From a virus, in IMG/VR virus record IMGVR_UViG_3300023202_000066, positions 1-25,604 of that record: 25,604 nt of DNA; one strand, 5' to 3'. The position numbers and the translations under genes were made by a program. The notes beneath the pieces were generated by a model. It did no database searches and was not told the DNA's origin. It was given only the letters and a program-made list of their open reading frames with translations. Position 1 is the stretch's first letter, and every line of letters begins with the position of its first letter. Positions 3,070-24,191 of this stretch are shown here, one piece after another.

Positions 3070-3125
3070 TCGCGACTTTCAGAAAAACCAGGGAACCCGC
3101 GAGTGAAACCGGTTGCACAGATTCG
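3056..3125. repeat. 10-bp inverted repeat around the capsid-operon control region
   Basis: CGAATCTGTG at 3056-3065 and its exact reverse complement CACAGATTCG at 3116-3125 are separated by 50 nt. The left arm overlaps the -35 box and the right arm overlaps the end of the recurrent 16-bp element. This could be a looping operator or an RNA stem in transcripts arriving from upstream. Confidence 0.6.
3102..3117 (-). promoter_or_regulatory. Recurrent 16-bp operator-like element, copy 1
   Basis: Plus-strand AGTGAAACCGGTTGCA lies in the 160-nt gap upstream of the protease gene, about 35 nt upstream of its -35 box. The core AAACCGGTT is a near-perfect palindrome. Confidence 0.65.
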
Positions 3126-17185: not shown

Positions 17186-17605
17186 TTACCTTCCAGACGG
17201 TTTGATAATTCCGCTCGGTCGCGGAGCCTCGGCGATGATGGGTTTTTTGGCCGCAGCCTTCGCCGCCTCCCCCACACTTTGACGCGAATCGTTCAGTTTC
17301 GCAACCACGCCGGTCACAAACTGCTCTTTTTGTTCTTCGGTGAGCAAATCCGCGAGCGTCTCCAACGCCGCCAAACAGAGCAAGTTCTGATGTTGGGTTT
17401 GGATCATGCCGCCCTTCAGCGACACCAGAGTTTGAATCACCGACGCCGGATGCAGAGAGCCGTCAGGGAACTGGCCGAGCTTCAGCTTCCCCATGTGCTC
17501 GTCCATGATTTGCATGAGTTCGTTCGCCGCTTCGCCGATGCGAGCGTCGTTCAACAAGCCAATCGGAGCCACGTCGGGAGTTTCGGTTTTCGTTTCGTCG
17601 GCCAT
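17186..17605 (-). CDS. Uncharacterised helical protein with operator-fused leader
   Basis: The product is 139 residues, mostly alpha-helical (LNDARIGEAANELMQIMDEHMG, then LLCLAALETLADLLTEEQKEQF), with an Ala/Lys/Pro-rich C-terminus. I start at ATG 17605, which has GGAG seven nucleotides upstream; the frame extends further up without a better site. The recurrent 16-bp element directly precedes the SD, forming TGCAACCGATTTCACTGGAG, identical over 20 nt to the leader at 22140. No family is recognised. The stop lies inside the ribosome site of the SDR gene, so the two are likely co-translated. Confidence 0.7.
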   Translation of the reverse strand: MADETKTETPDVAPIGLLNDARIGEAANELMQIMDEHMGKLKLGQFPDGSLHPASVIQTLVSLKGGMIQTQHQNLLCLAALETLADLLTEEQKEQFVTGVVAKLNDSRQSVGEAAKAAAKKPIIAEAPRPSGIIKPSGR

Positions 17606-20462: not shown

Positions 20463-20686
20463 GCCGTCACCGGTTTAAGCATTGCGGGTAGAGTTCCAGA
20501 TTTGCGTAGCCGCACAAACGTCTGCCGCAGATCATCCAAATCATCCGTCACTTCGACATGCATCTCCGCGAACAATTCCTGAGCACGCCGCAAATCCCGC
20601 ACTCGCCAATGATCGGCACAATGCCCAGTTGAAAGCGACAGCAGAATGTGAACAGCCTCGAACGCCTTCTTAGTTTGCCAACTCAT
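20459..20686 (-). CDS. Uncharacterised 75-residue helical protein
   Basis: An ATG preceded by GGAGAAAGAT opens this small gene; the leader CCGGAGAAAGATATG is almost the same as that of the gene at 22898. The product is helical with several histidines and arginines (FEAVHILLSLSTGHCADHW, DLRRAQELFAEMH). No family is recognised. Its end is coupled to the Tat-signal gene. Confidence 0.65.
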   Translation of the reverse strand: MSWQTKKAFEAVHILLSLSTGHCADHWRVRDLRRAQELFAEMHVEVTDDLDDLRQTFVRLRKSGTLPAMLKPVTA

Positions 20687-20727
20687 ATCTTTCTCCGGTT
20701 GCCCCGCCCTGACGCGGGGAGATGTTG

Positions 20728-21662: not shown

Positions 21663-22124
21663 CTATTCCTTCTTGTCTTCAGGCGGTTCGCTCAAGTCGT
21701 TCGGCATCGCCGCTTCAGCCCGCAAGCCGTTAAGAGCCACCCGCCATTGGCGAGTTGCCTCCTTGTGAGCACCGCGAACGGTTGCCTTGGTCTTCTTGAG
21801 ATTCGCGTCGATTTCGTCCCGCAGCTTTGTGCGTTCCGCCTTCAAGCGAGCCTCCAGGTCATCCTTCGCCTTCTTCGCAGCGTTCACCGCCGCTTCGAGC
21901 TTCGCGTCCCGAATTTCATCGAGTTGCGTGATGCGAGCTTCCACCGACTTGATGGTCACTTCGGTCATCGGTTCGAGTTCAGGAATGACCGGTTCAGCCG
22001 GAGCTTCCGGTTTCGTTTCTTCCGCCGCCGTTTCTTCGACAGCCGGAACCGAGCCACCCTCGAACGGTGCAGCATCGGGGTCGGTTTGTTCGACAGCCGG
22101 AGCCGTCGCAGATTCAGTATTCAT
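21663..22124 (-). CDS. Acidic N-terminal/coiled-coil protein
   Basis: This 153-residue protein has a disordered Glu/Pro/Ala-rich first 55 residues, then a long coiled coil with heptad-like Leu/Ala and alternating Lys/Glu (ITQLDEIRDAKLEAAVNAAKKAKDDLEARL) and an acidic tail. No enzyme motif is seen. The ATG is preceded by GGAGGG, into which the recurrent 16-bp element runs directly. The composition suggests a scaffold, chaperone or nucleoid-type binding partner; no family is recognised. Confidence 0.7.
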   Translation of the reverse strand: MNTESATAPAVEQTDPDAAPFEGGSVPAVEETAAEETKPEAPAEPVIPELEPMTEVTIKSVEARITQLDEIRDAKLEAAVNAAKKAKDDLEARLKAERTKLRDEIDANLKKTKATVRGAHKEATRQWRVALNGLRAEAAMPNDLSEPPEDKKE

Positions 22125-22256: not shown

Positions 22257-22898
22257 CTAGCCGATTTCGTCTTCGTTGTCGTGATCGCCGGTCGCGTAAT
22301 TCGAGCCAACACCCGACGCAACCGGTTCACGCTCGTCTTTCGAGAGTTCGCGAATTGCATCGGGATCAGCGAAACCGTCGCGAGCTTCGGTTTGCGGGAT
22401 CGCTTCGCGAGCCGAGTTCTCCGACTTGCACGCACCCTTACAGCACTTCGGCCCTTCGATCAGCGTGCGAATCGACTTCTCATCGAAACCCACCGCCGCG
22501 TTCGAGTCGAGAATCAAGTCCTTCAACTTGTTCGCGATGTGGGTCGGAACCGCCACGTTCCCCATGTCATCCTCGCCGGAGATTTCGATGAGCGAGATAC
22601 CCTCATCGAACCGACGCAGACCGCCCGCGAGTTGTCGCTTTTGTTCCGAGCCGGAACCAGCACGCATGACCAGCATGGTCAGGGAGAGAACACGCTGCAT
22701 GAGATCACCCACGCCAGCGTTCGGGTCAGAGAGAGCTTCGACCAGCGAAGTCGCCGCATTGATCGCTTCGGTACGATCTTCCGTTGTGTCGATTTCAGCA
22801 ATCGCCGTTTGAAGTTCCTCGCGTGCAGCTTGGAGCTTCTCGATGACCGCTTCTTTGTTGAGCAAATCGACAGCTTGCTCAGGGGTTCCGTTACTCAT
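22257..22898 (-). CDS. Uncharacterised 213-residue protein
   Basis: The product is helical at the N-terminus (EKLQAAREELQTAIAEIDTTEDR), followed by a mixed domain (RFDEGISLIEISGEDDMGNVAVPTHIANKLKDLI) and a short cysteine cluster (KCCKGACKSENSA) before an acidic, disordered tail. The leader is ACCGGAGAACGATATG. It is immediately downstream of the alpha-CTD-like gene (30-nt gap) and probably shares its transcript. No family is recognised. Confidence 0.7.
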   Translation of the reverse strand: MSNGTPEQAVDLLNKEAVIEKLQAAREELQTAIAEIDTTEDRTEAINAATSLVEALSDPNAGVGDLMQRVLSLTMLVMRAGSGSEQKRQLAGGLRRFDEGISLIEISGEDDMGNVAVPTHIANKLKDLILDSNAAVGFDEKSIRTLIEGPKCCKGACKSENSAREAIPQTEARDGFADPDAIRELSKDEREPVASGVGSNYATGDHDNEDEIG

Positions 22899-22928
22899 AT
22901 CGTTCTCCGGTTCTTTCGGCCCTTCAGG

Positions 22929-23324
22929 TTACATTGGCAAGCGGGAGCGGAGCCGAGTGTACTCCCACATTTGCCGGTTCAATTCAGCCCGCCGAGACGC
23001 GGGATAAAACCCACACTTCTCAAGCAACGCGAGCAGTTGTTTTAACATAGTCTCTCCGAGATTCGCAACCCCCAGCAACTCGTTCTGATTGCAATTCAGC
23101 AAGTCGCGAATCGTATAGACTTTGATTTCTTCGAGCGTGTTTGAGAGCCGCACGAATCCCTTGTCTTCGGCGGGAACAAACTGCTCAAGCCACGATACAG
23201 GCTTGTCTAAAATTCGTTGTTGTTGAGCAGGCGACAGCCGCACAAATTCAGGGGGAGAGATGCGAGCCTCTCGGTGCAACCGTTGCCGCCGCAACGATTC
23301 GACCAGCCTTGTGAGTTCCACCAT
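22929..23324 (-). CDS. RNA polymerase alpha C-terminal-domain-like protein
   Basis: This 131-residue protein resembles the alpha-CTD of bacterial RNA polymerase over about residues 43-108. The string FVRLSNTLEEIKVYTIRDLL aligns with the E. coli segment containing R265 and N268, which contact UP-element DNA; here R59 and N62 are the equivalents. NELLGVANLGETMLKQL aligns with the helix-hairpin-helix around N294-L295-G296. The K297/K298 pair is replaced by Glu-Thr. The first ~40 residues are basic and not part of the alpha subunit, and no alpha-NTD is present. The start has an excellent GGAGGTGATCGG site. A free alpha-CTD could bind promoters, activators or sigma and redirect host polymerase; this role is inference. 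Confidence 0.75.
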   Translation of the reverse strand: MVELTRLVESLRRQRLHREARISPPEFVRLSPAQQQRILDKPVSWLEQFVPAEDKGFVRLSNTLEEIKVYTIRDLLNCNQNELLGVANLGETMLKQLLALLEKCGFYPASRRAELNRQMWEYTRLRSRLPM

Positions 23325-23359
23325 CCGATCACCTCCGTCCGATTTTCTAGGTCGCTTCC

Positions 23360-23386
23360 CGAATAAATAACCCTGTTATTTATTCG
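23360..23386. promoter_or_regulatory. Perfect 12-bp inverted repeat 36 nt before the alpha-CTD-like gene
   Basis: CGAATAAATAAC and GTTATTTATTCG are exact reverse complements separated by CCT. The AT-rich arms stand out from the GC-rich surroundings. It could be an operator or an RNA attenuator hairpin; no U-tract follows on the coding strand. Confidence 0.65.
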
Positions 23387-23498
23387 ACCGAAGCAGGACA
23401 TCCCCACAACCATTACACGCGGTGATCCGATACCGGAACCCGCCCAAAAATTTTATCCACCGAAGTGAAATCGGTTGCACTCCACGGTTGCATCGCAT
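23376..23498 (-). CDS. Possible 40-residue leader peptide with CxxC
   Basis: An ATG at 23496-23498 opens a frame encoding a basic, hydrophobic peptide that ends RITACNGCGDVLLRSNK, with a CxxCG pair like half a zinc ribbon. Its stop lies within the first arm of the 12-bp hairpin upstream of the alpha-CTD-like gene. No proper Shine-Dalgarno is present, so translation is doubtful. If real, its ribosomes would disturb the hairpin. Confidence 0.25.
   Translation of the reverse strand: MRCNRGVQPISLRWIKFLGGFRYRITACNGCGDVLLRSNK
23464..23479 (-). promoter_or_regulatory. Recurrent 16-bp element, copy 7
   Basis: Plus-strand AGTGAAATCGGTTGCA, identical to copies 5 and 6. It lies 140 nt upstream of the alpha-CTD-like gene and is followed on the coding strand by TTCGGTGGATAAAATT, which includes a -10-like TAAAAT. 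Confidence 0.65.
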
Positions 23499-23510
23499 CC
23501 CACCGAACAC

Positions 23511-23549
23511 CACTGAAGCGTAGCAAGTTCGTACCCACTGAAGCGTAGC
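23511..23549. repeat. Pair of 14-bp direct repeats
   Basis: CACTGAAGCGTAGC occurs at 23511-23524 and 23536-23549, a 25-bp period. It lies between the coiled-coil gene at 23616 and the recurrent element. It could be a tandem binding site. Confidence 0.6.
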
Positions 23550-23615: not shown

Positions 23616-24191
23616 CTACGTTTCCGCAACTAGCTCACGCAAAGCGGGAACCAGTTCGCAGAGATCGACGCCATACGACTCGAACGCAGGCTCCCACTTT
23701 TTGTAGACGGTGAACAACTGCCCGATGGCTTCGTCCACGCTGCCTTTGATCTCAACGATTTCTTCGACTTCAGGCGACTCCGCGATGGATTCCTTCAGCA
23801 CCGCGAGACGGTTCTCGTAGAACGAAATCTGCCGCGTCGTTTTGGCGTTCGTTTCGAGTTCGTTCATCAGCCGGAGTTCCTGAATCTTTTCCTCGGCAGC
23901 TTTGATTTGTTCGAGCGTAGCCTCGGCCCGCCGCGAGTTCATCGACGATGACTTCGTGACCTTTTCCAGTTCGCGAGCCTTCTTCACGTCCGAGAGAGCG
24001 AGCACGACTTCAGTGATTCCGATTTCCACTTTCGGGTGCTCTTTGATCGCGAGATCAGCCTCCAGCCGAGCCTCCTTGTCCTTCAGTTTCCGCAGCATTT
24101 CAGCGAGTTCAACAGGCGACTCCGGCAGAGCCGTGAGCTTGAATTTTCGCTTCCGTTTCTTAGCGGGCTTCTTTTTCTTTTCGACAGACAT
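23616..24191 (-). CDS. Lysine-rich coiled-coil protein
   Basis: The 191-residue product starts with a very basic tail (EKKKKPAKKRKRKFK) that could bind nucleic acid. Long coiled-coil helices follow (ELAEMLRKLKDKEARLEADLAI, and ATLEQIKAAEEKIQELRLMNELE), with a compact C-terminal segment (YKKWEPAFESYGVDLCELVPAL). It has a strong GAGGAGGT ribosome site and overlaps the previous gene by 32 nt. It recalls phage proteins such as siphovirus Gp157-like or nuclease-inhibitor coiled coils, but no signature decides. Confidence 0.72.
   Translation of the reverse strand: MSVEKKKKPAKKRKRKFKLTALPESPVELAEMLRKLKDKEARLEADLAIKEHPKVEIGITEVVLALSDVKKARELEKVTKSSSMNSRRAEATLEQIKAAEEKIQELRLMNELETNAKTTRQISFYENRLAVLKESIAESPEVEEIVEIKGSVDEAIGQLFTVYKKWEPAFESYGVDLCELVPALRELVAET

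Follow-up and report, generated by a model that had tools for sequence, protein, structure and literature searches.

A stand-alone alpha-CTD-like phage protein and its kinship with free planctomycete alpha-CTDs

The C-terminal domain of the RNA polymerase alpha subunit (alpha-CTD) is the main docking point of the polymerase for activators and UP elements. What role would such a domain have when it is encoded on its own, in a phage genome? The question is raised by a 25,604-base IMG/VR virus record, here referred to as the window, i.e., the whole stretch of DNA that was analysed. The gene content of the window includes a portal, a GpA-type terminase, a Mu-F-like giant fusion protein, a major capsid protein, a ParB-like protein, ThyX and a MazG-like gene, and all recognised genes are found on the minus strand. 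An earlier analysis of the letters alone (below, the sequence-only reading) described one short gene (Table 1), without giving its strand, as encoding a detached mimic of the host polymerase alpha-CTD. When positions 22929-23324 are read on the plus strand, the frame contains stops.

The product of this gene (the window protein, 131 residues) is a genuine free alpha-CTD fold that lacks the N-terminal domain of the alpha subunit (alpha-NTD). It matches the Pfam family PF03118 (RNA_pol_A_CTD) at 25.6 bits (E=1e-5), above the gathering cut-off of 23.8, and at E=1.5e-7 in a single-record search; no other Pfam family was matched. Generic helix-hairpin-helix (HHH) models remained below their own cut-offs (HHH_5, E 0.06), and RNA_pol_A_CTD is the only model above the Pfam cut-off in the window protein and in two of its relatives. 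In a phmmer search of PDB sequences, 30 of the 31 matches were RNA polymerase alpha chains (best E=0.004). The protein is not an RpoA, as NCBIfam rpoA models gave 11-22 bits against cut-offs of 227-406, and no PHROGs family was found above noise for the protein or its homologues. A count of charged residues gives the extension at the N-terminus a net basic character, as had been stated.

The fold was modelled with AlphaFold from the five phage homologues only; confidence in the result is moderate, with a mean pLDDT of 65 and values of about 75-80 across most of the domain. Residues 31-107 of this model superpose best on alpha-CTDs in the PDB (Z 9.7, rmsd 1.5-1.6 Å over 64-69 residues), ahead of RAD51-type HHH domains (Z 7.4-8); Foldseek E-values were weak (best 0.1). 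The alpha-CTD pattern that the sequence-only reading had placed at residues ~43-108 is thus borne out by both the Pfam match and the superposition, and the protein does not fall into an unrelated HHH family.

The functional surfaces are kept only in part. In Escherichia coli, the 265 determinant, which contacts DNA, consists of R265, N268, N294, G296, K298, S299 and E302, and the 287-type activator surface consists of T285, E286 and V287. By alignment, R265, N268, N294 and G296 correspond to R59, N62, N88 and G90 of the window protein, in agreement with the earlier assignment, while K298, S299 and E302 are replaced by T92, M93 and Q96. Four of the seven residues are therefore kept and three are changed; the determinant describes how the E. 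coli subunit functions and is not a criterion for membership in PF03118. Most of the activator-contact patch is changed as well, T285, E286 and V287 being replaced by N79, Q80 and N81. Consequently, the DNA- and activator-contact surfaces survive just partly. Three of the phage homologues described below (G009, G011 and G020) additionally lack the equivalents of N294 and G296. With these losses, the ability to bind DNA may be reduced or gone.

Neither a single-sequence search for close relatives in viral contigs and annotated phages nor tblastn in INPHARED (E<=1) gave a match to the window protein, and homologues were therefore reached by way of the terminase. A terminase search identified 54 related viral contigs, and PF03118, sought in 50 of these, is present in five of them (G005, G011, G020, and G009 and G010, which are nearly identical). 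The gene is thus best described as an accessory gene, where absence from a contig is weak evidence because many of the contigs are fragments. The homologues are only 22-31% identical overall to the window protein, yet across all five phage sequences 11 residues are invariant, among them R59 and N62. The case that the sequence-only reading had named as its refutation, with these two positions not conserved, is thus not observed.

The homologues occupy a comparable region of the genome. In the window, G009-G011 and G020, the gene is located downstream of a coiled-coil-like gene (cc191, Table 1) and upstream of an epimerase gene and ParB, and in G005 it is found between cc191 and ThyX. In G009 (L025:1321-2136) and G010 (L026), the alpha-CTD-like domain forms an in-frame fusion with a coiled-coil-like phage protein that is conserved and that in G011 and G020 is encoded by a separate, overlapping downstream gene (E=2e-39 for the fusion partner). 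CsrA-like genes (PF02599) are also present in related phages (L022:571-810, L023:1706-1999 and L024:1714-2001); in G011 and G020 such a gene is found directly upstream of the alpha-CTD gene, and the L023 and L024 versions have an apparent insertion in the domain.

Table 1. Positions of the alpha-CTD gene, its domain, neighbouring genes and leader elements, numbered along the window.
Feature	Positions	Strand	Evidence
Gene for stand-alone alpha-CTD-like protein, ATG start, 131 aa	22929..23324	-	ORF; PF03118 above gathering cut-off; homologues in related phages
alpha-CTD domain proper, residues ~43-108	23001..23198	-	Alignment, AlphaFold model, PDB comparison
cc191, upstream neighbour, 191-aa coiled-coil-like protein with homologues in alpha-CTD-bearing relatives	23616..24191	-	tblastn synteny
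cc153, downstream neighbour, with weak similarity to the gene that immediately follows alpha-CTD in G005	21663..22124	-	BLASTP E=6e-5
cc159, homologue of the gene directly after the alpha-CTD gene in G011/G020 (in G009/G010 joined to it as one gene)	17186..17605	-	BLASTP E=6e-9; fusion partner E=2e-39
Shine-Dalgarno sequence GGAGGTGAT	23328..23336	-	Duplex energy -13.8 kcal/mol, rank 1 of 27 window genes
Perfect AT-rich inverted repeat CGAATAAATAAC-AGG-GTTATTTATTCG, 12-bp arms, in the leader	23360..23386	-	Fold
18-bp palindrome AGTGAAATCGGTTGCACT preceding the alpha-CTD leader, from a dispersed set of seven	23464..23481	.	Copy count against shuffled sequences

From where was this domain derived? 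Nearly all Planctomycetota genomes contain PF03118 matches, typically three; RpoA is among those of the genome examined, as is a TPR protein that has two alpha-CTDs at its C-terminus. When a profile of the phage proteins was compared with 294 planctomycete genomes, the top matches were not RpoA, but short chromosomal open reading frames in four genomes, which encode free alpha-CTD proteins of about 90 residues. With a profile of this free family, members are detected in about 140 of the 147 genomes of a single Planctomycetota order (that of genome G172); elsewhere in the phylum the family is nearly absent (4 of 294 genomes in a phylum-wide search). The free host genes have neighbours that are common to several genomes, including a UvrD/PcrA-like helicase gene; the window gene does not share this chromosomal context and is found among phage genes.

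Several comparisons place the window protein closer to this free family than to RpoA. It shares 47% identity with a free host protein over 55 residues (45-47% over about 55 residues for the closest members), compared with 44% over 48 residues for planctomycete RpoA and 33% over 48 residues for E. coli RpoA. Profile scores are 51.5 bits for the free family, 32.2 for RpoA and 36.9 for the TPR-linked alpha-CTDs; for the G005 homologue the respective values are 42.1, 28.0 and 23.9, whereas the G009/G011/G020 group gives similar scores for the free and RpoA types, i.e., its affinity is less clear. The phage profile and the host free-family profile match each other with 98.9% probability (E 9.8e-18), and domain trees join the phage proteins to the free host proteins (support 0.981-0.991 with all phage sequences, 0.966 with the window protein alone), where the trees were calculated with FastTree from about 79 columns of a short domain with long phage branches. 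The window protein is homologous to these order-wide proteins and, more distantly, to RpoA. Its nearest relatives are the free planctomycete alpha-CTDs, and the template was probably not the polymerase subunit of the host. In this respect the sequence-only reading is supported for the free alpha-CTD fold and not supported for its presumed source, the closest relative being a free planctomycete paralogue.

The kinship has clear bounds. Like the window protein, the planctomycete proteins (e.g., L082, L083, L084 and L089) are free-standing and carry the equivalents of R265, N268, N294 and G296, and both share the DLL(N/H)-C and GFY signatures. In contrast, most of the planctomycete members begin with an M-x-RIPL-like segment followed by an STAEIGL helix and retain the K298 and E302 equivalents, none of which is found in the window protein. 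The latter has a different, longer, basic N-terminus, an insertion of 6-7 residues before the first DNA-contact helix, and T92, M93 and Q96. Because of the different N-terminus, the insertion before R59 and the T92/Q96 changes, we consider the window protein a relative rather than an orthologous member of the family. From these affinities we infer that the phage host is a member of the same order, and an ancestor of the phage may have acquired the gene from a bacterium of that order, or the transfer may have gone the other way. A scan of GTDB contigs revealed no prophage of this phage lineage, and the terminase relatives found within the order are only 24-26% identical.

The phylum harbors other forms of the domain. 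In addition to RpoA, a TPR protein with a tandem pair of alpha-CTDs at its end is encoded in L070, L072, L087, L093 and L094, and in L070 its gene adjoins a queuine tRNA-ribosyltransferase-like gene. A 1425-residue Planctomycetota NERD-kinase protein (L069:577-4854), which by its architecture we take to be PglW-like, contains an alpha-CTD-like HHH domain.

Phage proteins of this kind are already known by annotation, since named examples exist (“RNA polymerase alpha subunit C-terminal domain-containing” proteins of uncultured Caudovirales phages and of Mycobacterium phage Mithril, in BFVD), as do the viral contigs L131 and L132. The annotated proteins are small with a predicted alpha-CTD-like fold, but are weak structural matches to the window protein (E 0.03 and above); in a Foldseek comparison of the window model with the BFVD models, the best match, which is unnamed, had a probability of 1.0 and the named ones at most 0.98. 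On L131 (5923-6384) and L132 (2349-2798), a free alpha-CTD is encoded on a phage-like contig, as in the window, but there it is about 60% identical to proteobacterial RpoA (Salmonella/Acinetobacter) and has a WPPE tail and an unrelated C-terminal extension. On this similarity, it is an independent capture straight from proteobacterial RpoA, unrelated to the lineage of the window. The tblastn “phage” matches in Salmonella and Acinetobacter records were set aside as bacterial rpoA within the annotated-phage collection; plain bacterial rpoA is present in the “phage” records OR851339, CAKLQH020000003, AFYI01000003 and others, and alpha-CTD matches in that collection therefore need a contamination check. 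A phage-encoded homologue of a host core component is also represented by ribosomal protein bS21 (PMC9723584); it too is a small phage copy of a part of the host machinery, from a different machine, which makes it an analogy only. In the open-licence literature, we found neither a functional study of phage alpha-CTD proteins nor a paper on the free planctomycete proteins. New here are the connection to a host family that spans an order, the comparison across several related phages, and the fused form.

Which function would be consistent with these observations? We favor, with a probability of roughly 55%, that the window protein is a phage homologue of the free alpha-CTD factor of the host, acting in transcription as its competitor or substitute. 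Because it lacks the alpha-NTD, the protein has no place in the polymerase core and would act in trans, as a small transcription-modulating protein. The R59/N62/N88/G90 face may contact the DNA minor groove, or a partner of the host free alpha-CTD or of the RpoA alpha-CTD, and the protein's own N-terminal helices could supply a phage-specific contact. During infection the host factor would be outcompeted or replaced, and RNA polymerase would be diverted from the activators of the host or drawn to the promoters of the phage. Direct tethering of the polymerase to phage promoters, as had been suggested, is not supported in that form and would require a partner. A more far-reaching version, which we put forward only tentatively, holds that the free family is a dedicated transcription factor throughout the order and that the diverged phage version takes over or poisons that factor.

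Competition with the alpha-CTD of RpoA itself is less likely than competition with the free host protein. A true mimic of the polymerase domain, derived from RpoA and competing for activators or UP elements, would have the same fold, domain family and R265/N268/N294/G296 equivalents as are seen here, and the L131/L132 proteins show that phages do capture this domain from RpoA. We nevertheless regard such an origin as unlikely, given that the similarity to RpoA is the weaker one in profiles and trees, and that the T285/E286/V287 surface is not kept. It is similarly improbable that the alpha-CTD fold serves as a generic HHH DNA-binding accessory in replication, recombination or packaging, unrelated to transcription. 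Here, the superposition of RAD51-type domains, the fusion in G009/G010 to a coiled-coil-like protein whose gene lies close to those of the terminase, the HHH domain within the NERD-kinase protein and the helicase gene that adjoins the host free family in several genomes are weighed against the Pfam result, where RNA_pol_A_CTD stands alone, and the higher rank of PDB alpha-CTDs over other HHH proteins. A decayed passenger, i.e., a functionless remnant of a captured host gene, would explain the patchy distribution among the relatives and the partial loss of the DNA-contact patch, but the frame has stayed open in several diverged lineages with the invariant residues noted above, and the gene has the strongest Shine-Dalgarno sequence of the window, which makes decay very improbable.

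Since the closest relatives of the protein are free order-wide alpha-CTDs and not the polymerase, the phage probably disrupts or substitutes for a transcription factor of its host that has been little studied. A free alpha-CTD that is nearly universal in one order, and is present in its probable phages, poses a question on polymerase regulation in a poorly studied phylum and offers a candidate handle on how phages of that order redirect transcription. If the phage protein does compete with the host protein, it could become a small genetic tool in a phylum that has few; if it takes over or poisons an order-wide factor, it would represent a new way in which a phage gains control of the RNA polymerase of its host.

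The sequences upstream of the gene had been read as one of the best ribosome sites in the window and an elaborate leader. The ribosome site is indeed the strongest (Table 1), and the 76-nt leader, with its inverted repeat, folds at about -22 kcal/mol. Neither the strong Shine-Dalgarno sequence nor the hairpin is conserved upstream of the homologous phage genes; the two were therefore rejected as a conserved regulatory signature, and controlled high expression can be inferred at most. A scan for sigma70-like promoters around the gene detected none, where planctomycete promoters may differ.

The 18-bp palindrome (AGTGnAAnCGnTTnCACT) is found in seven copies in the window, at 3102, 9118, 12122, 15977, 17616, 22140 and 23464 (counted at <=2 mismatches; shuffled sequences gave a mean of 0.05 and a maximum of 1). 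The sequence-only reading had proposed this recurrent element as the DNA target of the alpha-CTD, a proposal that is weakened because palindromes of the same class are present also in related contigs where an alpha-CTD gene was not detected; a dedicated partnership is thus unlikely. In related phages, such dispersed palindromes have other centres (e.g., AGTGCAAGCACTTGCACT in L051 and L059, AGTGCACACGTTTGCACT in L039), a pattern that resembles a network of operators or stoperators whose binding protein co-evolves with them. Two further repeats are found in the window. The sequence CACTGAAGCGTAGC occurs in two exact copies (23511-23524 and 23536-23549) in the intergenic stretch that precedes the alpha-CTD gene, and the translation start regions of g75 and g213 (20681-20700 and 22893-22912) are identical at 19 of 20 positions, AACCGGAGAA(A/C)GATATGAGT.
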